From positions 1,116,001 to 1,180,000 of the forward strand of contig NZ_CP016783.1 of the NCBI RefSeq assembly GCF_002288385.1: 64,000 bases of DNA, read 5' to 3'. The notes below the pieces were generated by a model. It worked only from the letters and a program-made list of their open reading frames with translations, was not told where the DNA came from and searched no databases. Both the position numbers and the translations under genes were made by a program. Shown piece after piece: positions 14,762 through 29,391 of this stretch. Each line of letters starts with the position of its first letter. The stretch's first letter is position 1. Origin of the DNA: Candidatus Planktophila lacus (GTDB lineage: Bacteria; Actinomycetota; Actinomycetes; Nanopelagicales; Nanopelagicaceae).

Positions 14762-15733
14762 TTAGCTCTGGAAATCCTCGCGGCGGACCCAGGTGACTAG
14801 CACCCAGAGTGAGCAGACCAAGGTCACGATCAGCGCTGGGAAGTAGAAGATCTTGTCTACGAAGATGCCGATCGGTGGAGATCCTGGCATGAGCCCGCGA
14901 AGTGAGATCAAAGAATAGGTAAGTGCTGCAGCCCAGGTAAGAGATGAAAGCGTTGGTGGGCGCTGACCGGTAACCACCATGTAAGTCATGATCGTCACTG
15001 AAACCATCGCTGTGATCATGAGTAACAGAATGATTGTTACGAGCAACTTAGTTGAATTTGAGCGAACTGCCTCAAATACTGAAGAAGATTGACCGTTGTT
15101 GAATTCTTCCACTGCCATATCAAATGACTTTGCATCATCCATAGTCACGGTGGTGAAGGCATCGTTCCAAAGGCCATGGATCATATGGATATCAAAAGTG
15201 TCGATCTTCTTTGTGTAATCCAGTGGCAAGATGTTTAGCGTTGCTTGATCGCCATCTTCCAAAGTACCGATCGCGCTCATTGGTATCTCAAATGAATACT
15301 TATCCATTGGATACCAGCCAACATCAGAACGTGCACCAGCACCTGGTTGCTCATCTATCTGAACATCAAAGCCACCAGTTGGAACATCTTTCTTAAAGCT
15401 ATAAGTATTACTTCCACCATTACTGGCTCCGATTACCGAGTCAACAATCAAATCAACATCTTGACTAGGCACCCAACCGCTCTTTAAGCGGTAACCAACA
15501 TCGTCGCTATTTGGCCAAGGCAGTACACGTGCATTTGCCGTTCCCTCAAGTGGATTAACTCCGGTGATCTGAACCAATAGTTCGAGGCGATTATCCGAGC
15601 TCATCTCAATCAACTTGTCATCGATCGCAGTTGCATCATCGGCTGGGTTCTGTGAAATCACCACAACTATTCCGAGATAGGCAACCGTGATCAAGATAAA
15701 GGTCTGAAAGAACTTGGTGCGGAAAACTTTCAC
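14762..15733 (-). CDS. DUF4436-like membrane protein
   Basis: 323 aa, function unknown. One N-terminal membrane helix (about 10-27), then a large extracytoplasmic domain of ~200 residues. It contains WYPMDKYSFEIPMS, which resembles the YP(F/M)D(R/K)Y motif I associate with actinobacterial DUF4436 proteins. Three C-terminal helices follow (around 230-255, 270-285 and 292-312). 8 bp after the stop of the first secreted tail protein, so it is the last gene of that operon and may help anchor or assemble its products. Family placement is by motif memory only. Confidence 0.6.
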   Translation of the reverse strand: MKVFRTKFFQTFILITVAYLGIVVVISQNPADDATAIDDKLIEMSSDNRLELLVQITGVNPLEGTANARVLPWPNSDDVGYRLKSGWVPSQDVDLIVDSVIGASNGGSNTYSFKKDVPTGGFDVQIDEQPGAGARSDVGWYPMDKYSFEIPMSAIGTLEDGDQATLNILPLDYTKKIDTFDIHMIHGLWNDAFTTVTMDDAKSFDMAVEEFNNGQSSSVFEAVRSNSTKLLVTIILLLMITAMVSVTIMTYMVVTGQRPPTLSSLTWAAALTYSLISLRGLMPGSPPIGIFVDKIFYFPALIVTLVCSLWVLVTWVRREDFQS

Positions 15734-15741
15734 AAGAGCCC

Positions 15742-17508
15742 CTACTTCTTCTTATAGCCAGCCGGACACTTTGGTTTTACCGCAGTCACCTTTTTACTGG
15801 TCTTGCCTTTGATACATGTAATTGTGACAGCCTTCGTAACCGGTTTGGCTGAGGCGCTCGGGGTTGGAGTAGCAGATGCAGTAGGAGTTGGTGTTGGCGC
15901 TGGTGCATCTTGCTCAAGTTTTACCTTGATAGTTGGTGATGAATAAGTGAATCCGCCTGCTGAAAGATAGAGCCAGCCGTTCTTTTCACCAAGAATTTCA
16001 GTTGCAACCTTTTGATTTCCTTGATCATTAACAATTGAAAGCTCAGCCCTAATAGGTGCACTCGTAAATCCATAAACGCATCGAGCAACATCTGAGCGCA
16101 TAATCAAGTCATAGGTACCAAGGAACTCATCACCCTTTGTCGTGAAGTGAGGCGCAGCAACTTGGTATTCAAGTGTGCCTTCACCTTTATTTAGAGATGG
16201 TGGCCCAGCGGAATATTGAGTTGCATTTGTTGTGACAATTCCGGTTACACCTTTATCGCCACTGGTGAAGCACTGCGAAGCACCTTGGGTTTCATTTTCA
16301 TCAAGTGTACGAACCGACCATGTACCCATGAGAGTTGTTGCCTTATCCCCCACAAAAGGTAGCCACACCTTTAATTGATCCATACCAAATTTACTTGAAG
16401 CCGAAGGAGCGATGATCACATTTCTCGTCATTGGATCTTCTGTACAGGCGCTACGTCCACAACCTTGCGGCGCTCCATTTGAATTTGGAGATCGGAGTGC
16501 GACCTCTGGTTTGTATCCACCTGTTTTAATGTCGTACTCATCTTTGAGTGCTTGTGGCATCTCTGGATAGCGATACATCTTATAAACCACTGGAACAGCG
16601 ACAGGATTTGCTGCGATATAGAAGGAATATCCACTACTAATTTCGGTAAATGACACGTCTGGCTTTGCAATTCTGCCGTGCAACCAGCCCTTTGGCTTAT
16701 TTTGAAGCTTTAGCTTTATATAGAACTTCTTATCGGCAGGGAATGAATATCTCTGAGCGCACAATCTTTCTTTAGCGCTACCTGCCACACAGAAGCTAGT
16801 TCCAGAAAAACCGAAGCTAGCAAATCGCCATTGACCCACAGGATGTCCAGATCCGCCATTGGTCTCTTTTGACATACCAGAATCAATTTCTTGGATTGCA
16901 CTATCGCCAGATTCAAGTTTCACCGGATAAATCTCGATATTTAGCGCCTGCAAGTCAGCACCCGTTGATTTATTCAAAGTACCCTGCGTTAAGGCGGAAA
17001 CGTAATACAAGGTTCCACCATCGTGTGGCGCACTAGGTAAATCAAAGATACTTCCCGTGGCACCAAACGGTAACCTTAATTTCTCGGATGCTTCAAATTT
17101 GTTTAACGCCTCATTAGGGAAGTATCGCGAAAATGCGGCCTTAGTAGTTTCTCCGCCAGAACTAATAACTCCAAAATCTTCAATGCAGTAAACCGTACTT
17201 AACGTTCCGCACACAGGCAGCATCGATTTAAAGCCGAGTGATCCTGCGGTGCAATTAGGGTCTTCTGCGCTCTTACATGTTGGATCTTTGTAAGCATCGC
17301 TTTGGTACTTCTGAAAATCAATCAAATATGAGGCTGGAGTTCCGGGAGGGGAATCCAGGAATCGCTGGATATGCATGCCACGGTCAGCATCGTTCGGAAT
17401 GGCCCAGCTTCGTCCCGCATCGCCGACCGTTTCACCTGCTGCAACTACGGCGGAAGAGCCGCCCAATATAAATGCGATAGCAACGATTATTGAAGTTAGT
17501 TTTTTCAT
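15742..17508 (-). CDS. Secreted protein with two-cysteine basic C-terminal tail (paralogue 1)
   Basis: 588 aa, function unknown. Signal peptide at 1-23 (MKKLTSIIVAIAFILGGSSA). The body shares GWLHGR, AAPHFTTKGDEFLGTYDLIMRS, ARCVYGFTSAPI and GEKNGWLYLSAGGF with the next two genes. A Pro/Thr/Ser linker (APAPTPTPTASATPTPS) leads to a ~28-residue tail: C-x-KGK, then KK-V-TAV, then CP-x-GYKKK. All four secreted genes here end this way. Starts 4 bp after paralogue 2. Likely exported through Sec and held at the cell surface; enzymatic motifs were not seen. Confidence 0.75.
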   Translation of the reverse strand: MKKLTSIIVAIAFILGGSSAVVAAGETVGDAGRSWAIPNDADRGMHIQRFLDSPPGTPASYLIDFQKYQSDAYKDPTCKSAEDPNCTAGSLGFKSMLPVCGTLSTVYCIEDFGVISSGGETTKAAFSRYFPNEALNKFEASEKLRLPFGATGSIFDLPSAPHDGGTLYYVSALTQGTLNKSTGADLQALNIEIYPVKLESGDSAIQEIDSGMSKETNGGSGHPVGQWRFASFGFSGTSFCVAGSAKERLCAQRYSFPADKKFYIKLKLQNKPKGWLHGRIAKPDVSFTEISSGYSFYIAANPVAVPVVYKMYRYPEMPQALKDEYDIKTGGYKPEVALRSPNSNGAPQGCGRSACTEDPMTRNVIIAPSASSKFGMDQLKVWLPFVGDKATTLMGTWSVRTLDENETQGASQCFTSGDKGVTGIVTTNATQYSAGPPSLNKGEGTLEYQVAAPHFTTKGDEFLGTYDLIMRSDVARCVYGFTSAPIRAELSIVNDQGNQKVATEILGEKNGWLYLSAGGFTYSSPTIKVKLEQDAPAPTPTPTASATPTPSASAKPVTKAVTITCIKGKTSKKVTAVKPKCPAGYKKK

Positions 17509-17512
17509 ATCT

Positions 17513-19222
17513 CTATCTCTTCTTATATCCGGTTGGGCACTTTGGGTTAACGGCAGTCACCTTCTTAGTCATTTTTCCTTTAACGCAATTGATTGAAGTC
17601 TTCTTCAAGGCCGCAGGCTTTGATGCTGCAGTTGGTGATGGGTTAGCCGCTGGCTCGACCGCTTGAGTCAACTTAACTCGAACTGTTGGTGAAGAAAACG
17701 TGAAGCCACTTGCTGTCAGGTAAAGCCAACCATTCTTCTCACCAAGGACTGTTGTAGCAACTTGCGCCGTTCCGTCAGCGGCAACGATGGAGACTGTTGC
17801 AGAAACCGGGGCAGCGGTGAATCCGTAGATACATCGAGCAACAGAAGATCTCATAAGTAAGTTATAAGTACCTTTGAAAACTTCGCCATTTGGAAGGAAG
17901 TGAGGAGATGCAACTTTATAATCTAAGGAATTCTCTGTTTGATTGTAAACAGGTGGACCAGATACGAAGAAGTTCGAATTGGTTGCAACGATGCCACTTA
18001 GGCTCGCATTATTTCTGAAACAACCCTTTTGATCCGATCCAGAATTTGTACTGCGAATTGACCACTGAGTTGGCGCCATAGGTGCTTTATCTTTGAGTGC
18101 TGAGTACCATGCGATCGCTTCAGGAAATTGGCTTTCACGATAATCCAAATAGTCTTTTAATAAGGACGGCGAGACCAAACTTCCTGCCAGGCGATCACCA
18201 AAACCTGTGCCGTATGCAGATTCTTCAGGTCTCGTTGCGTAATAATCCGCTACTTGCTTTGGAATATCAGTTTTTGGAAACCAAGCATAAACGCTAGGGA
18301 CTATCGAAGCGCGTCCCGAAACTTGAATTACTTGATCTCCATCGGCGGCTGTATTTATTTCGGCAACCGTGTTGTTAGTTCTTCCATGTAGCCAGCCATT
18401 TATCTTTGCATGCATCTTCAAGCTCAGACCAAAATCTATGTCCAGCGGTAGTGGCCATGCCAGTAAACATTCAGTCGCCGAAGATTGTGCGCAACGAGCT
18501 GTTGTGCCTGTGCTCTGATCGAATGGGACTCGTTGGTTCGAGACCATACCGAGAACCTTGAAGGCGGCAACCTCTGTTGTTGGTCCAGTAATTTGATAAC
18601 GCCCTGTTACTTTGGAAACAGCAAATATTCCCAAAGAAAAGTCATTTACATTAAATAGCGGATTTCCTGCAACTTTAATACCTGTCGCTTGTGCGACCAC
18701 CAAATATTGAGTGCCGGCAACGTGAGGCGCCTCAGGTATATCAACTAAAAATGTAGATCCACCAGTGGGTAGGTTTGCCTGGAGATTTCCTTTAAATGCG
18801 TAAGCCATTTTCTCTGGGAAAGCTCCTACGTAATTCACTGCAAGCTTCTTGCCAGCCGAATTGGTAGCAGTTACCCCCTGAACGCAATCAGTTGTGAGTT
18901 CTTGGCTGCAATAACCCAAATTAGCCATGAAATTCATGAATTTGTCTTGGCCACATTCTGCAGTTCCATACTCGAAACAGTTGTTGACGCTTAAGACTTT
19001 GCTGGTACCAACTTGAGTGCCATCACTAGTGAATGCTTGAAGAGTAGAAAAGGTATTCTTCAATTTCTGAGAGTCTTCTATCACTACCCCGAATGAAGGC
19101 ACATTCCCCGGCGGTGAAGAAATCACAAATTGCTCATCTGGAATATCTGCTGCGCTAACTGGAGAAAAGACTCCGAGTGTTAGCGCAAATACTGTGCAAA
19201 ATGCAATGAATATCTTCTTCAT
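17513..19222 (-). CDS. Secreted protein with two-cysteine basic C-terminal tail (paralogue 2)
   Basis: 569 aa, function unknown. Signal peptide MKKIFIAFCTVFALTLGVF then SPVSAAD. Shares with paralogues 1 and 3 the blocks GWLHGR (about 275), ASPHFLPNGEVFKGTYNLLMRS, ARCIYGFTAAP and GEKNGWLYLTASGFTFSSPT. It ends with the same tail (C-x-KGK, KKVTAV, CPTGYKKR) after a short Ala/Pro linker. The start overlaps the end of paralogue 3 by 4 bp, so the three are translated as one unit. Conserved cysteines suggest disulphides outside the cell. Confidence 0.75.
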   Translation of the reverse strand: MKKIFIAFCTVFALTLGVFSPVSAADIPDEQFVISSPPGNVPSFGVVIEDSQKLKNTFSTLQAFTSDGTQVGTSKVLSVNNCFEYGTAECGQDKFMNFMANLGYCSQELTTDCVQGVTATNSAGKKLAVNYVGAFPEKMAYAFKGNLQANLPTGGSTFLVDIPEAPHVAGTQYLVVAQATGIKVAGNPLFNVNDFSLGIFAVSKVTGRYQITGPTTEVAAFKVLGMVSNQRVPFDQSTGTTARCAQSSATECLLAWPLPLDIDFGLSLKMHAKINGWLHGRTNNTVAEINTAADGDQVIQVSGRASIVPSVYAWFPKTDIPKQVADYYATRPEESAYGTGFGDRLAGSLVSPSLLKDYLDYRESQFPEAIAWYSALKDKAPMAPTQWSIRSTNSGSDQKGCFRNNASLSGIVATNSNFFVSGPPVYNQTENSLDYKVASPHFLPNGEVFKGTYNLLMRSSVARCIYGFTAAPVSATVSIVAADGTAQVATTVLGEKNGWLYLTASGFTFSSPTVRVKLTQAVEPAANPSPTAASKPAALKKTSINCVKGKMTKKVTAVNPKCPTGYKKR

Positions 19223-20901
19223 TTCTTCTTATAGCCTTTCGGACAAACTGGATTTACTGCGGTCACCTTCTTACTTGTCTTTCCCTTTAGGCAAGTGATT
19301 GAGCTCTTCTTGATCGCGGCCGGCTTCACCGGCACCACTGGGGCTGCTGCCTCTTGAGTCAGCTTTACTCTTACTGTTGGTGAAGAGAAGGTGAAGTTAT
19401 AGGCGGCAAGATTGAGGAAACCATCTTTTTCGCGAACCAAAGTTGTGGCAATGTTCGGTTCGCCAGATTCAGAGACAATAGAAATAGTTGCGCCAATTGG
19501 CGCTTGCGAGAATCCGTATAGGCATCTTGCAACTACTGAACTCATCACTAAATCGTAAGTACCCTTGAATACATCCCCTGTAGAAGTTAAGTGCGGTGCT
19601 GCGACTTTATAATCCAACACACCTTCGTTTTTATCAAAGCTAGGTGGACCGTCTAAGTACTGTGCAGCATTTGTTGAAACTACTCCAGCGAACCCATTAC
19701 TCTTAGCAAAACATGGACTTTCATTTTTGGTGTCACCAAAAGAGATCATCGTCTTGAGCATCCAAGCTGTGGGCATACCTTGTGCTTTATCACCGATAAC
19801 TGGAAGCCAATTAACAAACTCTTTCATTGTGTTGGCATTGTTACCATAATTGCCATCGCGTCGTAGAGCGATTTCTGAAAGTGGTTGATCTTTTGTGCCA
19901 AAAGTTGTGCTTCCCCAGTTGGGAATACCTGAATAGTAATTTTTTAGCCCTGCAGGCATGGCGTCGTTATTAACCCAAACATCAATAAGTGGAACCTTGA
20001 TTGCATTTGCCTGAACTGTAAGTAATTGAGTTCCGGCGGCTTCTTTTACCAATGTTATTGATGGTGCCTTCATGCGTCCATGCAGCCAACCGTTTAACTG
20101 GTTGTTCATTCTAAATTGCAAACCGAATGCAACGTTTTGTGGAAGTGGAAAACCTTTTGCGCATTCGGTTACCGAAGACATAACGCATTTTCCTGTCTCT
20201 GGAGGATTTCCGACTGGCGCTCCAATTAACCAATCCGTTGTTGGATATTGCTTTGGATCAGTAGACATTGAGCTAAAACCAAAAGTGCCTTTTTCTATAG
20301 CAATAGCAAATATTCCAGTCTGCATGCGTTGCATCAAGAATTTGGCAGTCGGTGAATTATTGGTATCACGAACGCCGACCATTTCAGATTTAATTAAATA
20401 TAAATCTCCACCAGCATGTGGCGCATCAGGAATTTTTACAAGTATCGCACCACCACCTGTTGGCAAATTCTGGGAAGGGTCGCCTTGAAAGTCGTACTTT
20501 CCTTTGTCAGCAAAGATTCCAGCTGGTTGAATGTCTAGTTCCTTGCCGTCATCGGTCTTAGCAAACACCTTGGTAATGCAGTCAACTGTGTTAACAGAGT
20601 CGCACTTTGGCAAGATTGCGCGGTAGAACTGTTTTGAAGTGAACTCACAACCTGATTGCCCAAGTGAAGAGCAAGCCGTTATTGATTCGACACCTTGCGC
20701 TGAGTTAACTTTAAAGCTAATGAATCCTGAGTTGAATCGAGTTATTTCTGCTGAATCTTGGAGTAAATATCCTTGGAAATTCTTAGCTGGAGCAGGAGAC
20801 GCTAGATGCTGTTCATCATACGAATCTGCGCCATGGGCCAGCGTTGGAGCAATTAGCGCTACTGAAATCAGTAGAAGTACGAATTTTCCTAAACGCTTCA
20901 C
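19219..20901 (-). CDS. Secreted protein with two-cysteine basic C-terminal tail (paralogue 3)
   Basis: 560 aa, function unknown, first gene of the three-gene tandem. Signal peptide MKRLGKFVLLLISVALIAP, cleavage likely after AHG. Same block order as paralogues 1 and 2: NGWLHGR, VAAPHLTSTGDVFKGTYDLVMSS, ARCLYGFSQAP, REKDGFLNLAAYNFTFSSPT, then the tail with C-x-KGK and CPKGYKKK. Tandem duplication is the simplest origin. 122 bp separate it from the fourth, more distant member, with a terminator in the gap. Confidence 0.75.
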   Translation of the reverse strand: MKRLGKFVLLLISVALIAPTLAHGADSYDEQHLASPAPAKNFQGYLLQDSAEITRFNSGFISFKVNSAQGVESITACSSLGQSGCEFTSKQFYRAILPKCDSVNTVDCITKVFAKTDDGKELDIQPAGIFADKGKYDFQGDPSQNLPTGGGAILVKIPDAPHAGGDLYLIKSEMVGVRDTNNSPTAKFLMQRMQTGIFAIAIEKGTFGFSSMSTDPKQYPTTDWLIGAPVGNPPETGKCVMSSVTECAKGFPLPQNVAFGLQFRMNNQLNGWLHGRMKAPSITLVKEAAGTQLLTVQANAIKVPLIDVWVNNDAMPAGLKNYYSGIPNWGSTTFGTKDQPLSEIALRRDGNYGNNANTMKEFVNWLPVIGDKAQGMPTAWMLKTMISFGDTKNESPCFAKSNGFAGVVSTNAAQYLDGPPSFDKNEGVLDYKVAAPHLTSTGDVFKGTYDLVMSSVVARCLYGFSQAPIGATISIVSESGEPNIATTLVREKDGFLNLAAYNFTFSSPTVRVKLTQEAAAPVVPVKPAAIKKSSITCLKGKTSKKVTAVNPVCPKGYKKK

Positions 20902-20952
20902 GCGATCCCCAGTCTTAGAAGTTTTTTAGAGTACTTACGAAGAGACCGCCCC

Positions 20953-20978
20953 CGGTTCACTAATCTCTTAGTGAACCG
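20953..20978 (-). terminator. Hairpin terminator after the fourth secreted gene
   Basis: 11-bp perfect stem CGGTTCACTAA / TTAGTGAACCG with a 4-nt loop, 46 bp past the stop at 21025. No T-tract follows, as is common in actinobacterial terminators. It would separate the 21-kb gene from the three-gene operon. Confidence 0.6.
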
Positions 20979-21024
20979 AGGAACGGTTTTGCCCTCGTTT
21001 ATCTATATGGAAGAAGTGTCGAAA

Positions 21025-22911
21025 CTACTTCTTCTTATAACCTGCTGGACATGCTGGCTTAACTGCAGTGATCTTCTTTACAGCCTTGCCCTTAACGCAT
21101 GTGATGGTTGTCTTGTTCAAGATCTTGGCAGCAGGCTTGTAGCCCTTCTTGATGCCGATCTTGAGCTTTGGACGTGAGTATTCGAAGCCAGATACATCAA
21201 TGATGATTCGGCCGTTCTTCACGCTGATGTTCTTTAGGAAGGCTGCAGTTCCGCCTTCTTCTGTTGTTAGCGAGATTTCTAGAGCTGATGCAGCATCGTT
21301 TGGATTAGTCATACCCCAAAGAAGTGCAGCATCTGCTGTAGGAATTACCGCCTTGTAGAAGCCCTTGTTCACTGTCACACCATCTGGTGCAAAGTGAGGA
21401 GCAGCTGCGCGCCATGTGAATGCCTTATCCTCTTCGCTCCAGACTGGAGTTGAGAGTCCGCAGACACCGTTTGAGCCGACGTACATTCCACCGGAAGTAC
21501 CTTCAACACCGAAGCCGGAGTTGTCGTCGTTGGCTGCCATAGCAATCATCTGGAATTGACGAACGTTGGCCTTTGATACGCCTTCTTCGCCTTCGCAATC
21601 CTTAACGTTCTTCGCAAGAGGAACAGTTACAGGAGTACCTGTGATTGAGATTGCGTTGTATTCGCCACCTGGCTCTTGCTTAACAACGATATCTGTACCA
21701 ACAGCAACGGTAACGCCAGTCTGCATTTCGCCGACGCGAACCTTAACTGTAATTACGATATCTGAATCAAGGCTTACTGCATATGCCTTGTTACCGACCT
21801 GGCCTGCGAGGTTGGTCTTCTTATCAGCACCTGTAAGTGTTGGAAGAACATCGACGAATAGCATGCTTGATACGAACTCGTTAGGAGTACGTGCTTCAAC
21901 ATAAAGTCCGTCATAACCAAGTGCGCCAAGGTTTAGACCTTGCCAATCAGGGTGTGTCCAGCGACCGACAAGTGCGCGACCGGCTTCAGCTGGCGTTCCA
22001 ACGGCAACACCTGGAGCTGGTGCAAGTGGAGCTGTTGCAGCTAATTCAGTTGCTTCAGCAGTTGCGCTTTCGGTTGTTGGAGTTGTTGTAGTTGCAGCAG
22101 CTGCTGGATCAGCAGGAACTGCAGCAGGTGTACCGGCAACAGCCCAGCCGTTAACAAGTGCATCACGAGTTACCCAGATAGGAATGATAATTCCTTCGGT
22201 AGCCTTAAATGTCTTGGTAGCAGCATCGTAAGTAGTTCCCCACACTGGACGCTGTTGAGTTGCTGACAGTTCAGCAAGATCAATAAATGTCACGCCAGTA
22301 AAGTTAGCAATCTGCTTTGCTGCATCTGCAGCTGTTGGATAGAAGAAGAAGAACTTAACTTCATTATCTTGCACGAAGGCAACTGAGCCCTTGTAGCAAG
22401 CACCAAATGTTGATTTAGTTGATGACTTAGTCGCTGGATTAAAGCAATCCATTGGATAGCTATAGAAATCTAGCGGCTTGTTAATGTCATAGGTCTTTGT
22501 TTTTGGATCAAACTTCGCACCCTGTTCTGGGTGATTAGCTGTCCCGAAAAGTGAAGAGAGATCCTGCATTACGTATTTGCCTGAAGCAAGTACATCGCGC
22601 TGGTATTGAGACATCCACCAGTTGTTGTCGATTACTTTTCCACCCTTGATCTGTGCAACTGGTGCAAAGAAATCAACTGGTGTCTTCTTAGCTGGAACTT
22701 CTGCTCCGCTTGGCACATAGGTCAAAGGAATTTTCTGTCCTGAACCTGTGGCAATTGTTACTGATTCGATGCAATAAATACCGTTTTGAATTACACAGGC
22801 ATTCATTGGTGACTTAGGCAGGCGGATGGTTGCAGCACTTGCTGAAGTAGCAGTGAGCAATCCCGCGAGCATTGCTAGGGACGCAGCCCCAGCGATTAGC
22901 TTCTTTTTCAC
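21025..22911 (-). CDS. Secreted protein with two-cysteine basic C-terminal tail (divergent member)
   Basis: 628 aa, function unknown. GTG start at 22911 with a GGGGG stretch 4 bp upstream; signal peptide MKKKLIAGAASLAMLAGLL ending ASA. Residues ~270-310 are a Thr/Ala/Pro-rich linker between an N-terminal and a C-terminal region. Only the C-terminal ~150 residues match the other three (AAAPHFAPDGV, KNGRIIIDVSGFEYSRP), followed by the same tail (C-VKGK, KKITAV, CPAGYKKK). Its leader can fold into competing hairpins. Directly downstream of the sigma/anti-sigma pair. Confidence 0.75.
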   Translation of the reverse strand: MKKKLIAGAASLAMLAGLLTATSASAATIRLPKSPMNACVIQNGIYCIESVTIATGSGQKIPLTYVPSGAEVPAKKTPVDFFAPVAQIKGGKVIDNNWWMSQYQRDVLASGKYVMQDLSSLFGTANHPEQGAKFDPKTKTYDINKPLDFYSYPMDCFNPATKSSTKSTFGACYKGSVAFVQDNEVKFFFFYPTAADAAKQIANFTGVTFIDLAELSATQQRPVWGTTYDAATKTFKATEGIIIPIWVTRDALVNGWAVAGTPAAVPADPAAAATTTTPTTESATAEATELAATAPLAPAPGVAVGTPAEAGRALVGRWTHPDWQGLNLGALGYDGLYVEARTPNEFVSSMLFVDVLPTLTGADKKTNLAGQVGNKAYAVSLDSDIVITVKVRVGEMQTGVTVAVGTDIVVKQEPGGEYNAISITGTPVTVPLAKNVKDCEGEEGVSKANVRQFQMIAMAANDDNSGFGVEGTSGGMYVGSNGVCGLSTPVWSEEDKAFTWRAAAPHFAPDGVTVNKGFYKAVIPTADAALLWGMTNPNDAASALEISLTTEEGGTAAFLKNISVKNGRIIIDVSGFEYSRPKLKIGIKKGYKPAAKILNKTTITCVKGKAVKKITAVKPACPAGYKKK

Positions 22912-23016: not shown

Positions 23017-23664
23017 CTATCGGAGTTGAGCTAAGTACCAGTTCCACTGCCACGTCTCACGCGGAGAAGTCTCCAAAGAATCCTTGAATTCAGGGAAGGT
23101 ATAGACCAGCAGCGCAGTGCCTCCAGGCAGAACGGTTGTTGGCCGTGAGTCGCTGACGATTGGGGTGTGATTGGTGAAGATGCCCAATGATGGCGCAGTC
23201 GAAATCAAATCTTGAGTGTTGTTCTGCAGACTTAAAACCCAAGTAACCGGACACTGTCCTCTGCCACAACGTTCCCAAGAAATCTTCAGACCATTTGCCG
23301 TTAAACCACCGAGAGTGTCACCGATTCCACCAGCACCACTAATAGCACCGAGATCGCCAACGCTCTGTTCCCATGTAACTGGGTAATCAGATTGCAGGCC
23401 AACGATCTCCGGCTGGCTATTTGAATTAGCGCCGGTAACTCCGTTATCAGAGGCCACAATAATTGGGGCTGGCTTTTGAATTACTTCATAAATTCCAATA
23501 CTGGCCGCACCAACGGCAATTACACCAAGTAAGGCAACAAGTGCGCGACGAATTCTTTGGCGACGCACTTTGGCGATAATAATCGGAGCGAGGTCACGAT
23601 TTTCAAGGACGCCAAGTGCCATCCACTGCATCTCGCGTTTAATTAGCGGATCTACATCACTCAT
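23017..23664 (-). CDS. Probable membrane anti-sigma factor / hypothetical
   Basis: 215 aa. About 37 cytoplasmic residues, one membrane helix near 40-60 (RALVALLGVIAVGAASIGIY), then a ~155-residue outer domain. Its ATG overlaps the end of the sigma-factor gene by 8 bp, the usual arrangement for a cognate anti-sigma factor, which is why I propose that role. The zinc anti-sigma motif (HxxxCxxC) is absent. The outer domain has two close cysteines (CGRGQC) and resembles nothing I can name. The function rests on context only. Confidence 0.55.
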   Translation of the reverse strand: MSDVDPLIKREMQWMALGVLENRDLAPIIIAKVRRQRIRRALVALLGVIAVGAASIGIYEVIQKPAPIIVASDNGVTGANSNSQPEIVGLQSDYPVTWEQSVGDLGAISGAGGIGDTLGGLTANGLKISWERCGRGQCPVTWVLSLQNNTQDLISTAPSLGIFTNHTPIVSDSRPTTVLPGGTALLVYTFPEFKDSLETSPRETWQWNWYLAQLR

Positions 23665-24259
23665 TGTTATCCACCACTTCTGCGATTACGGTTTCGATTT
23701 CAGATGGTCGCTGAGAACTTCCAGTCAACTCTTTATTTGCGGACTTTTCTAGCTCTGGAACTAACTCGACATATGCGGCTACCGCTGCTTTGCCGCGGGC
23801 TAAGTGTGAAGCTGCAGTGCCCATTGGAATCTGCAGAACGTCAGCGACTTCGCGCAAGACCATGCCGTGCTCGTAAATCAAAACTAGAACTGCGCGTTGT
23901 GCCGCACTCAGCGACTTTAGGGCTGCTTGGACAAGTAAGCGCTGAGTTACATCATCTGTTTGATCAACTAAGTCGCGAATATTTTCAGCCAGATCCCAGG
24001 AAGTTTCCTTCTCTTGCTGACGGCGCAACCATTTGCGACGCATATCTGCATGCTTGCTAACCATTACACGCATTAAATATGCCTCAGGATTTTCGTGGCT
24101 GCGGATCTTGCTCCAGCGCTTGTAAACATCTGCCAGCGCTTCTTGCAGAACATCTTCGGCGTTCTGGGTATCAAAACAAATTACCTTTGCAGCACGCAGA
24201 AACGCCTTCTGGTTTTCGCGTAACCAGAGGGTGAACTCAACTTGGTTCTGTTGGCTCAT
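23657..24259 (-). CDS. SigE-family (ECF) RNA polymerase sigma factor
   Basis: About 200 aa with the two ECF regions. Sigma-2 is FLRAAKVICFDTQNAEDVLQEALADVYKRW followed by PEAYLMRVMVSKHAD. Sigma-4 is LKSLSAAQRAVLVLIYEHG with the helix-turn-helix LREVADVLQIPMGTAASHLARG. I take the ATG at 24259, since GGAG sits 5 bp upstream; a GTG 6 bp earlier would leave no room for it. It lies 22 bp after the MFS gene and is followed by the putative anti-sigma gene. It may control the secreted genes downstream. Confidence 0.85.
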   Translation of the reverse strand: MSQQNQVEFTLWLRENQKAFLRAAKVICFDTQNAEDVLQEALADVYKRWSKIRSHENPEAYLMRVMVSKHADMRRKWLRRQQEKETSWDLAENIRDLVDQTDDVTQRLLVQAALKSLSAAQRAVLVLIYEHGMVLREVADVLQIPMGTAASHLARGKAAVAAYVELVPELEKSANKELTGSSQRPSEIETVIAEVVDNNE

Positions 24260-24280
24260 GCGCACTCCATGAGAGGAAGG

Positions 24281-26221
24281 TTACCTGCTTGCTGCACCAA
24301 AGAGCGAGGTCGCCAGCAATACTGATAGCCCGATAAATACTCCGCTTGCGCCAGCCGATGCGGCGAGTGCGCCTGCGGCGGCCGGTACTAAAAATTGTCC
24401 AAAGCGATTACCCATTAAGCGCGCTGAGACGGCTAGCGCTCGTTCATTAGCGGCAGTCTTTTGTGAAACCAAGGACATTGTTAACGGTTGGCCAATTCCA
24501 AGTGAAAATCCTGCGATAAAGACAATGGCGCCAAGAGTTAGTGGTGTTTTTGCAAAAGCCATACCTGCACAAGCAATAACAGAGACTGTGGTGCTGACCA
24601 TCAACAATTGATACGTAGAAAAACGTGCGCTTAGCCGGCCGAGGAAGAAGCGAGAGATCATCGTTGTACCGGCACGAATGGCCAGAATGATTCCGATCGC
24701 ATAGGGAGAGAAATTATTCTCTGTGCCGAAGAGCGGTAAGAAAACAACAAGAACATCGGCAACTGACGAGATAGCTAGTGAGACATAGATTGCAGCCAAA
24801 ATGCCAGGCTTCTTTAGTAGCGCAATCGCTGCGGTATAGGTGCCTTCATCAGATTTAGCTTCAACGCTTGGCTTCTCCTTGCGCCATCTGATAACCGGCA
24901 CTAGTGCAACCACACAAAGAACAAAGCCTAAAAGAAAAGCGTTAGATGTTGATTTAGGAAGTGTTCCATCGGAACCCGCAACAAGTGCAGCCACTAGCGG
25001 TCCAATTAAATGTCCAAGAGATGCGCTAAATGTGTAGTAGCCAAAGTATCTGTCGTAATTTTCGCGAGGTGCCCGAAGTGCAACCATAGATTGGCCACCC
25101 ACCATACAAGCCAGATGCGATATGCCAGCAAAGGCGGTTGCGATTGCGAGAGTAAAGACCGAGTTAGCAAAGATTAGGGCTACGGCTGTTAGCGCCATGG
25201 AAATAGTTCCGGCGATTATGAACTTACCTTCACCGATCTTTCCTACTAATCGGCCAAATTGCAGCGCCAATAAAACCGGAAAGAGTGCGTAGAGCGCGGC
25301 AACTACACCGATTTCATAAGTGCTGGCATCTAGTTCGATCGCTCGATAGGTAATCATCGGGCGAAGAACGTAGATCGTGGCCTGAGTAAGGGTAGAACTC
25401 AATAAGAGCGGACGCGCCCAGAAGAAGCGAGAGATCATCGTTGTACCGGCACGAATGGCCAGAATGATTCCGATCGCATAGGGAGAGAAATTATTCTCTG
25501 TGCCGAAGAGCGGTAAGAAAACAACAAGAACATCGGCAACTGACGAGATAGCTAGTGAGACATAGATTGCAGCCAAAATGCCAGGCTTCTTTAGTAGCGC
25601 AATCGCTGCGGTATAGGTGCCTTCATCAGATTTAGCTTCAACGCTTGGCTTCTCCTTGCGCCATCTGATAACCGGCACTAGTGCAACCACACAAAGAACA
25701 AAGCCTAAAAGAAAAGCGTTAGATGTTGATTTAGGAAGTGTTCCATCGGAACCCGCAACAAGTGCAGCCACTAGCGGTCCAATTAAATGTCCAAGAGATG
25801 CGCTAAATGTGTAGTAGCCAAAGTATCTGTCGTAATTTTCGCGAGGTGCCCGAAGTGCAACCATAGATTGGCCACCCACCATACAAGCCAGATGCGATAT
25901 GCCAGCAAAGGCGGTTGCGATTGCGAGAGTAAAGACCGAGTTAGCAAAGATTAGGGCTACGGCTGTTAGCGCCATGGAAATAGTTCCGGCGATTATGAAC
26001 TTACCTTCACCGATCTTTCCTACTAATCGGCCAAATTGCAGCGCCAATAAAACCGGAAAGAGTGCGTAGAGCGCGGCAACTACACCGATTTCATAAGTGC
26101 TGGCATCTAGTTCGATCGCTCGATAGGTAATCATCGGGCGAAGAACGTAGATCGTGGCCTGAGTAAGGGTAGAACTCAATAAGAGCGGACGCGCCCACGG
26201 CAAAAGTTTTTGGGACGCCAT
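24281..26221 (-). CDS. MFS transporter with exact in-frame internal duplication
   Basis: 646 aa as read; a normal 12-helix MFS carrier would be ~387 aa. Residues 9-267 (from WARPLLLSS to TTMISRFF) are repeated without a change as residues 268-526, after which the protein continues LGRLSARFS to the end. Removing one copy gives a standard MFS with loop LVGKIGEGK after helix 2. The extra unit would add about 7-8 membrane segments, so the product as drawn may not fold. Starts immediately after the tctA stop. Substrate unknown. Either a very recent tandem duplication or an assembly error. Confidence 0.8.
   Translation of the reverse strand: MASQKLLPWARPLLLSSTLTQATIYVLRPMITYRAIELDASTYEIGVVAALYALFPVLLALQFGRLVGKIGEGKFIIAGTISMALTAVALIFANSVFTLAIATAFAGISHLACMVGGQSMVALRAPRENYDRYFGYYTFSASLGHLIGPLVAALVAGSDGTLPKSTSNAFLLGFVLCVVALVPVIRWRKEKPSVEAKSDEGTYTAAIALLKKPGILAAIYVSLAISSVADVLVVFLPLFGTENNFSPYAIGIILAIRAGTTMISRFFWARPLLLSSTLTQATIYVLRPMITYRAIELDASTYEIGVVAALYALFPVLLALQFGRLVGKIGEGKFIIAGTISMALTAVALIFANSVFTLAIATAFAGISHLACMVGGQSMVALRAPRENYDRYFGYYTFSASLGHLIGPLVAALVAGSDGTLPKSTSNAFLLGFVLCVVALVPVIRWRKEKPSVEAKSDEGTYTAAIALLKKPGILAAIYVSLAISSVADVLVVFLPLFGTENNFSPYAIGIILAIRAGTTMISRFFLGRLSARFSTYQLLMVSTTVSVIACAGMAFAKTPLTLGAIVFIAGFSLGIGQPLTMSLVSQKTAANERALAVSARLMGNRFGQFLVPAAAGALAASAGASGVFIGLSVLLATSLFGAASR
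24644..26197. repeat. Perfect 777-bp tandem direct repeat (two copies)
   Basis: Copies at 24644-25420 and 25421-26197 appear identical at every base I compared and abut without spacer. 777 is divisible by three, so the MFS frame stays open. No transposase, target duplication, terminal inverted repeat or junction microhomology is visible. Confidence 0.95.
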
Positions 26222-28209: not shown

Positions 28210-29331
28210 TTATGCCAAGCCAAGTGAAACTAGCGTGGTTGTGATGTCCTTCTTTTGTGATGCAAGGAATGCTTCGAAATCCTTGCCGTAATCTGTTTGG
28301 TTCTGCCAATCCTTAGCAACCAATGTTGCCTTCCAGGCATCTCCTGCACGAGTTACATCAACAGCCTTTAGCCAGTTAACGCGCTCTGCTTCGGTAAGTG
28401 CTGCTGGAGCAAGAATTCCGCGCCAGTTACCGAATGTGAAGTTGATTCCCTGCTGGATCAATGTCTGACCCTTGATTGACTTCAAACGTGATGGTGATGA
28501 AAGGGCTAGAACACGTAGCTTTCCGGCCTTTACAAATGAAGCGAATTCAGATGTACCTGAAACGCCAGCTACTGTCTGTCCGCTGAGTACAGAAGTTGTT
28601 ACTTCTCCACCACCTGCGTATGGAACGTAGTTCATTTCAGTGGCTTTTCCGCCAGCTTTTTCAACTAGAAGACCCATGTAAACGTGGTCAACAGTTCCCT
28701 TTGATCCACCAGCGATAGGTAGCTTTGGATTTGCAACGATATCTGCGAGTAGTTGATTAATTGTCTTGTACTTAGAAGATGTAGGAACAACAATCGCTTC
28801 ATATTCGCGCATCAATCCAGAGATTGCCTTTGAATCTGCTTGGTTTAGCTTTGACTTAGTTGAAGCAACGCCTGCAACCATCGCAAAACCTGTAATGAAA
28901 GCAAAATCTTTAGCCTTTTGATCTTGGAAGTATCCAAGACCTACAGTTCCGGATCCGCCTGACTTATAAGCAACTGTGTAATCGCTAAGCATGCCTTCTG
29001 CCTTCATAGCATCAGCAAATGCGATTGCAGTGGTGCCGTAACCGCCACCTACGCCAGATGAAGCAACCCACTCAAGCTTTGAGAGTGGGGTTACATCTTT
29101 GTACCACCATTTCAACTTGCCTTTTAGGGTTCCAGTTGAAACTACTAAACATGTTAGATCAGAGCCTTCGACTCCACGAGCCTTTGCTACGCGACCTGCG
29201 GTAATGCAGTCATCGCCAGCCTTTGCAATTGCTGCCGCTTTTGGTGCTGCTGTTGCTGTTGGAGCAACTGTTGCAAGTACTGAAAGCGCCAATGATGCAA
29301 CGAGTGCACCGGCAAATTTCTTTTTTAACAT
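28210..29331 (-). CDS. tctC: Tripartite tricarboxylate transporter substrate-binding protein TctC
   Basis: Exported solute receptor. About 373 aa from the ATG at 29331, which has AGGAG 7 bp upstream; a TTG one codon earlier is a poorer choice. Signal peptide to about residue 29. Between it and the TctC fold is an extra ~45-residue segment with Cys42 and Cys61 and a KGKLKWWYKD end, not part of standard TctC. The TctC body follows with GGGYGTTAIAFADAM, GSGTVGLGYF, GGSKGTVDHVYMGLL, YVPYAGGGEVTTSVLSGQTVAGVSG and LRVLALSSPSRL. First gene of tctCBA. Confidence 0.9.
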   Translation of the reverse strand: MLKKKFAGALVASLALSVLATVAPTATAAPKAAAIAKAGDDCITAGRVAKARGVEGSDLTCLVVSTGTLKGKLKWWYKDVTPLSKLEWVASSGVGGGYGTTAIAFADAMKAEGMLSDYTVAYKSGGSGTVGLGYFQDQKAKDFAFITGFAMVAGVASTKSKLNQADSKAISGLMREYEAIVVPTSSKYKTINQLLADIVANPKLPIAGGSKGTVDHVYMGLLVEKAGGKATEMNYVPYAGGGEVTTSVLSGQTVAGVSGTSEFASFVKAGKLRVLALSSPSRLKSIKGQTLIQQGINFTFGNWRGILAPAALTEAERVNWLKAVDVTRAGDAWKATLVAKDWQNQTDYGKDFEAFLASQKKDITTTLVSLGLA

Positions 29332-29391
29332 CAAGACTCTCCTTTAAGAGTTAGCCCACGAGGGATGGGGTTTGAGAAAGGTTATGCGTTA

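Follow-up and report, generated by a model that had tools for sequence, protein, structure and literature searches.

The four-gene cluster and its shared tail

A short cationic C-terminal peptide, referred to below as the tail, is shared by four consecutive genes at positions 15742-22911 of a 64,000-nucleotide stretch of the Candidatus Planktophila lacus genome (contig NZ_CP016783.1, 1,116,001-1,180,000), a genome of one 1.41-Mb contig; the whole stretch is called the window here. A preliminary description, made from the letters of the window, held that four adjacent genes have near-identical ends of ~28 residues, and four minus-strand open reading frames (ORFs) were confirmed at this place, each with a signal-peptide-like start and a tail. 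Signal-peptide calls throughout are those of a crude rule applied to the N-terminus, of which a looser variant was also used. The genes and their tails are the following:

15742..17508, minus strand: gene 1, ORF of 588 amino acids (aa), secreted by the signal-peptide rule, with the C-terminal tail
15742..15840, minus strand: gene 1 tail, placed by alignment; profile match E 1.3e-17; preceded by a Pro/Thr/Ser/Ala-rich linker
17513..19222, minus strand: gene 2, ORF, 569-aa paralogue; AlphaFold2 model with a mean predicted local distance difference test score (pLDDT) of 84.3 and a predicted template modelling score (pTM) of 0.82
17513..17611, minus strand: gene 2 tail; profile match E 7.6e-20; predicted hairpin, residues 542-548 and 551-557
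19219..20901, minus strand: gene 3, ORF, 560-aa paralogue with a GTG start and a 4-base overlap with gene 2
19219..19317, minus strand: gene 3 tail; profile match E 8.7e-19
21025..22911, minus strand: gene 4, ORF of 628 aa, secreted by the same rule, GTG start, related to genes 1-3 mainly C-terminally
21025..21123, minus strand: gene 4 tail; profile match E 1.5e-18

The consensus of the tail over ~28 residues is C-x-KGK-x2-KKVTAV-x-P-x-CP-x-GYKKK, and 17 of 32 alignment columns are invariant among the four window genes. The arrangement had been called an overlapping operon, which is only partly exact, since 4 bases are shared by genes 2 and 3 but a 4-base gap lies between genes 1 and 2. Gene 4 had been said to resemble genes 1-3 near its C-terminus, and the alignment does place the likeness mainly in that part (20% identity to gene 1 overall); gene 4 also joins genes 1-3 in single-linkage BLAST clustering of the bodies without their tails. 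None of the four window proteins reached the threshold of a Pfam or NCBIfam family, gene 1 having two Pfam matches below it.

Conservation, charge and predicted fold of the tail

A profile built from the four tails matches 22 copies in 20 ORFs of the 1.41-Mb genome (E 7.6e-20 to 7.6e-7), so that the likeness of the four tails is not due to chance; the preliminary description covered four of these 20 tail-bearing proteins. Seven residues (C9, K11, G12, P23, C25, P26, and G28 in gene 1 tail numbering), both cysteines among them, are invariant in 22/22 genomic copies. The tail had been described as more conserved than the bodies to which it is attached, and among 39 aligned homologues the tails indeed have a mean pairwise identity of 0.764, compared with 0.307 for the bodies and 0.276 for the linkers. 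Over a 24-residue core, 19 genomic copies share 71% identity at the protein level and 67% at the DNA level. Where two copies have the same amino acid, they also use the same codon at a frequency of 0.438, against 0.423 expected from codon usage (2896 comparisons). Because codon sharing is close to the codon-usage expectation, the likeness of the tails is maintained by selection on the protein and does not reflect recent copying; gene conversion and recent duplication are ruled out as its source by this codon use.

The 19 terminal tails of the genome are free of Asp and Glu and carry a mean charge of +8.2 over 27.6 residues, and the bodies of the tail proteins are near neutral or slightly negative. 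In the AlphaFold2 model of gene 2, residues 541-569 have a pLDDT of ~90 and form two strands (542-548 and 551-557) arranged as a beta hairpin, and the linker just before the tail (526-536) is disordered, with a pLDDT below 50. A phage protein with an unrelated body is predicted to have the same hairpin, at a pLDDT of 79-84, in a model that is otherwise poor (mean 48.9). The tail is therefore predicted to fold as a beta hairpin. A Foldseek search with the whole gene 2 model returned no match at E ≤0.001, a result that covers the full-length model and is uninformative on the tail as a separate unit. When VIA-align was applied to the list from Foldseek, the best Z was 6.3, for residues 408-519 in the gene 2 body, where a Z below 8 may mean merely a common arrangement.

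Position in the protein and variety of bodies

In all but one of the 20 tail proteins of the genome, 4-8 residues separate the end of the motif from the stop, and the twentieth, a protein of 745 residues, carries three linker-separated copies over its last ~190 residues, with the final copy 32 residues before the stop. All 20 have a signal-peptide-like start, including a 248-residue protein at 166 kb that is recognised by the looser rule alone; for comparison, the stricter rule is positive for 6 of the 44 remaining mechanically called ORFs of the window that are 150 aa or longer. One body related to none of the others has the look of a trypsin-like protease by eye (GDSGGS) and is unnamed by Pfam at E 0.01.

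A scan of 84,980 species gave 224 confirmed relatives, the best of which, 79 loci with 114 tail ORFs, were analysed. In 112 of the 114, 4-6 residues lie between the end of the motif and the stop, the two exceptions being a YHYH protein (L136) and a protein with three copies (L121), and in the viral loci presented below the motif lies 3-7 residues before the stop in 37/37. It had been proposed that profile hits restricted to the C-termini of signal-peptide proteins would support an attachment function, and this is largely what was found, with 112/114 hits terminal and signal-peptide-like starts in 20/20 proteins of the genome. Mid-protein positions, named in advance as contrary to that proposal, occur for a minority of copies (the three-copy protein and five loci of a second family, f54, described below), with most copies lying elsewhere. 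Such internal or tandem copies point to a repeatable domain and not to a strictly terminal processing signal.

Single-linkage clustering sorted 165 bodies without their tails into 18 groups, a few consisting of fragments. Among 25 tail-bearing proteins scanned with Pfam, 15 had a match above the cut-off and 10 had none. The body families include Trypsin, a bacterial Ig domain (BIg21), fn3, BspA-type leucine-rich repeats (LRR_5), Laminin_G_3, Peripla_BP_6, neocarzinostatin, Kelch, YHYH, CAP, and others, most of which are common in exported proteins. In one locus (L137, 1333-3087), a Peripla_BP_6 body is followed by a coiled-coil-like stretch and the tail, and this protein may be a receptor held in place by the tag.

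Distribution among genomes

At E ≤0.001, the tail profile matched in 203 of the 296 genomes examined from the order Nanopelagicales (0 to 23 copies per genome) and in 84 of the 108 better genomes of the order (≥90% complete, ≤5% contaminated). An even sample of the phylum yielded it in 3/396 genomes, that is, in the window's genome and in 2/395 others. One of these two belongs to family f54, in another class of the phylum, where the tail was found in 34 of 150 genomes and 2 of 21 genera, some of the matches being weak. All 79 loci from the species scan have actinobacterial record titles, among them some Acidimicrobiia and several metagenome-assembled genomes with doubtful species names.

Phage-borne copies

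A scan of IMG/VR found the tail on 37 contigs, and two more from a second scan (L243 and L244) bring the number to 39. Two protein types cover all 37 IMG/VR contigs. In the first (25 contigs), the gene for a secreted tail protein of ~562 residues follows a homologue of the terminase large subunit on the same strand, at a distance of 17-23 bases, in 25/25 loci; PHROGs matches support the phage assignment in the loci L092 (TerL, E 6.9e-16) and L098 (endolysin, E 1e-25). In the second (12 contigs), the tail is carried by a secreted trypsin-type protease, with a Pfam Trypsin match in the four that were scanned (L076, L099, L105, and L106) and the rest assigned by single-linkage.

The 562-residue phage protein is homologous over its full length to a host protein of genome G128 (33% identity, E 4e-50). 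The host versions in G128 (L195), G053 (L196), and G066 (L197), which we take to be surface-layer-like from their look (secreted, Ala/Thr-rich, and beta-rich), have a coiled-coil-like end without a tail, and the phage version runs on into the tail. A profile of the surface-layer-like C-terminal part matched strongly (E ≤2e-33) in 4 of the 296 genomes of the order and weakly in 20 more, with no match in the window's genome. A search for the 562-residue protein in named phage records gave no match, and a second search returned matches of E at least 0.4 alone.

Misassignment of host fragments as viral was considered as a source of these matches and rejected for most of them, since phage-gene homologues (a homologue of the L092/L098 terminase, its small neighbour, the endolysin, or a holin-like protein) lie in the flanks of 29/37 loci; the phrog_2 terminase profile by itself matches in 8/37 viral records. 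WhiB-like genes have been suggested as a key indicator of actinophages (PMC10202952), and WhiB-like ORFs were found by pattern match in four further protease-type loci (L077, L102, L105, and L109) and in L243, with Pfam confirmation for L105 alone. No phage hallmark was seen in the examined flanks of L076, L101, L103, and L110, of which L101 and L103 encode a protease nearly the same as that of L105. Because of the phage-host homologies and the tail held in common, the tail-bearing phages probably infect Nanopelagicales.

Other genes were noted on the same contigs. Protease-type contigs carry a carbamoyltransferase and an Hsp20 gene (Pfam-confirmed in L221, with homologues in L224) as well as ORFs that resemble 2OG-Fe(II) oxygenases by eye, and in several phage loci an HslV-type peptidase (phrog_1040; L092 8746-9336 and homologues) lies near holin-like or endolysin genes.

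Comparison with known surface modules

The 22 tails, compared with Pfam at E up to 10, gave no credible family match, most weak matches having been filtered; single-tail matches to TSP_1 (E 0.044) and to a zinc-finger family (E 0.1) were taken as chance, as was the single match (E 8.1) of a sequence search of the PDB. The tail had been described as neither an LPXTG, nor a PEP-CTERM, nor a LysM signal, and all three exclusions hold. For LysM, none of the 22 tails matched LysM, SLH, or any other wall-binding family of Pfam in the same search. SLH, GW, LysM, WxL, and CWB2 are non-covalent wall-binding modules, and the tail likewise is small, repeatable, often terminal, and found on unrelated bodies; it differs from them in lacking a Pfam match, in its shortness, in its two cysteines, and in the absence of acidic residues from the 19 terminal tails. 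The Excalibur domain is a small C-terminal two-cysteine extracellular module of actinobacteria, acidic and calcium-binding. It resembles the tail in size, C-terminal position, cysteine number, and lineage, but the 19 terminal tails contain no acidic residue and none of the 22 matched Excalibur.

With the LPXTG/sortase system, the tail has in common a terminal position, surface-type bodies, and a Gram-positive lineage. It differs in that the 22 tails contain neither an LPXTG-like motif nor a hydrophobic segment that could form a membrane helix, and sortase (PF04203) had 0 matches in the genome, where 3/14 control genomes were positive. PEP-CTERM is described as a short C-terminal region on diverse signal-peptide proteins, numerous in some genomes and absent from others, that consists of a near-invariant Pro-Glu-Pro followed by a transmembrane helix and then a basic cluster (PMC1569441). 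The tail is similar to the PEP-CTERM/exosortase (EpsH) system in being multi-copy (22 in 20 proteins) on diverse signal-peptide-like proteins, a likeness of pattern and not of membership. It lacks the PEP motif and the succession of transmembrane helix and basic cluster, has no acidic residue in the 19 terminal tails and no helix in the modelled gene 2 tail, is predicted to form a two-cysteine hairpin, and is sometimes tandem or internal. No description of the tail was found in the Creative Commons-licensed literature of PubMed Central, a collection that mostly excludes subscription papers. The tail family and the use of the tail by phages appear to be new; the kind of element, a small surface-retaining module, is already known.

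Proposed function of the tail

The tail is a mobile module, conserved at the protein level, joined to many unrelated signal-peptide-like bodies, nearly always terminal, often preceded by a flexible linker, and present in both host and phage. An independently folding module (the fold being predicted) on unrelated exported proteins (judged by their signal-peptide-like starts) is the arrangement expected of surface-retention modules, and its occurrence on otherwise unrelated exported proteins of host and phage suggests that it is probably a tag with the meaning 'stay on the cell surface'. We propose, with a probability of roughly 0.58, that the tail is a self-folding cationic two-cysteine mini-domain of ~28 residues that serves in non-covalent surface retention, most likely by binding to an anionic envelope polymer. 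Tail proteins would be exported by Sec, the hairpin of ~28 residues would fold outside the cell, perhaps closed by a Cys-Cys bond, and the cationic hairpin would then dock non-covalently to the envelope of the same cell, with the linker acting as a spacer so that the body is displayed. Proteins with three spaced copies or two adjacent copies are as expected of a binding module.

The preliminary description had suggested a surface-attachment or sorting module, and these two halves fare differently: the first is partly supported by a module that is largely terminal on signal-peptide-like proteins, whereas the internal and tandem copies speak against a sorting signal. As a C-terminal sorting or processing signal, the tail would be recognised by a dedicated enzyme that cuts it and links the protein to the envelope in the way of sortase or exosortase. 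The placement of the motif 3-7 residues from the end in 112/114 genome-locus and 37/37 viral ORFs is in keeping with this, as is the sporadic presence of the tail within the clade, and many copies on signal-peptide proteins with diverse bodies make up the very pattern that is described as having revealed PEP-CTERM (PMC1569441). Nevertheless, a cleaved signal is made rather unlikely by the copies that are tandem or mid-chain, by the motif not being followed by a hydrophobic segment, and by the failure to find a sortase in the genome; cleavage at three spaced copies or at mid-chain copies would cut up the protein, and a tail that is predicted to be folded, with two cysteines invariant in 22 copies, is not what such a signal would call for. 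The mid-chain and three-copy proteins argue instead for a binding domain. An external target (particles, algal polysaccharide, nucleic acid, or another cell) might be bound for adhesion or nutrient capture: the cationic character would suit any polyanion, and bodies such as Laminin_G_3, fn3, and LRR have a likeness to adhesion or sugar-binding proteins. The distribution of the tail tracks the host lineage, however, and trypsin-like proteases and phage copies would seem to gain little from foreign surfaces, so that binding to the cell's own envelope is preferred and an external target is considered unlikely.

Two further explanations give the tail no part in localisation. A stability or folding cap that shields the exported C-terminus from proteases would agree with the terminal position and the compact predicted fold, but it would have no need of a strong positive charge and would not account for mid-chain and tandem copies; this is quite improbable. 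That the tail has no separate function and was simply passed down as the end of a single family of paralogues might be thought from the window's genome, where 18/20 proteins have related bodies, yet this is already contradicted by the unrelated bodies to which it is joined in relatives and phages and by its being far more conserved than the bodies, and it can be given hardly any credence.

Several observations weigh against retention on the cell surface by the tail. Without their tails, the 20 proteins of the genome form one linked group of 18 and two singletons, so that the case for modularity leans mainly on the relatives and phages. The tail is not a general requirement for exported proteins, as some other signal-peptide-like proteins encoded in this genome lack it (e.g., L191 7477-8046 and window 28210-29334), and it appears dispensable in part of the lineage, since 93/296 genomes of the order, including 24/108 of the better ones, have no detectable copy. 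In family f54, the module lies mid-chain in a secreted protein in 5/9 further loci examined and is followed by 146 residues (L230-L232, L234, and L235), which is unexpected for a purely terminal anchor; four of these five contain two adjacent 28-residue copies by the strict motif, and the sole one scanned (L230) has a CAP domain. A trypsin-like viral protein (L243 4074-5087) has a tail that departs from the consensus (CVNGK and one Glu). VKOR is one common disulphide-forming enzyme, and it was not found in the genome (3/14 control genomes were positive, and other oxidases were not searched), which speaks mildly against an obvious source of the Cys-Cys bond; the bond is plausible, but the cysteine pair could serve another purpose.

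In the phages, the tail appears to serve the same end, placing a surface-layer-like protein or a trypsin-like protease on the infected cell. A possible but doubtful extension is that phages took over a surface-address tag of the host, and that the tagged proteins re-coat the infected cell or trim its surface proteins, thereby excluding rival phages or hiding the receptor, through a previously undescribed form of non-covalent anchoring. The phage copies thus raise a testable question, namely whether phages re-coat infected cells. The tail-bearing hosts are abundant lake bacteria, and the phages are probably those of freshwater actinobacteria. One tag that marks many displayed proteins would predict surface proteins, including some that vary between close relatives, and so short a cationic module could serve as a display tag if the binding is demonstrated.

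Neighbourhood of the cluster and possible gene turnover

The cluster is flanked on one side by DUF4436 and ribosomal-protein genes and on the other by the gene pair for an extracytoplasmic function (ECF) sigma factor and a putative anti-sigma factor, and this gene order is conserved in 3/5 relatives examined (G126, G127, and G134). The neighbouring genes, each in the same place in these three relatives, are the following:

14762..15733, minus strand: DUF4436 protein (Pfam PF14494, E 1.2e-20), directly downstream of the cluster
23017..23664, minus strand: putative anti-sigma factor, upstream of gene 4 and overlapping the sigma factor gene
23657..24265, minus strand: ECF-type sigma factor (Pfam Sigma70_r2 and r4_2), upstream of the cluster

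The protein at 23017..23664 has a hydrophobic N-proximal segment by the signal-peptide rule and no Pfam match, and its anti-sigma role is putative; the sigma factor possibly regulates the cluster.

Between the conserved flanks, the number of tail genes is four in G126, six in G127, and three in G134 (loci L225, L226, and L227). The cluster of G126, which is of the same genus, shares 99.8-100% protein identity with that of the window. Genes 1 and 4 are 82-100% and gene 3 is 84-100% identical across the three relatives, and gene 2 is retained in G126, matched in G127 by nothing closer than relatives of 36-40% identity, and missing in G134. Because the number of tail genes varies from three to six while the flanks are kept, the cluster appears to be a site where displayed proteins turn over. 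In G036, tail genes occur in other surroundings, and in G135 a distant relative of the DUF4436 protein (23% identity; L228 5915-6922) lies directly before two tail genes elsewhere in the genome, which suggests that DUF4436 proteins may accompany tail proteins more widely.

Beyond the sigma factor gene, a major facilitator superfamily (MFS) transporter ORF of 646 aa (window 24281-26221, minus strand) contains a direct repeat with a spacing of 777 bases, of which the 300 bases shown are 100% identical. The corresponding ORF is 387 aa in G126 and G127, and the repeat is due either to an in-frame duplication of recent date or to a mistake in the assembly.

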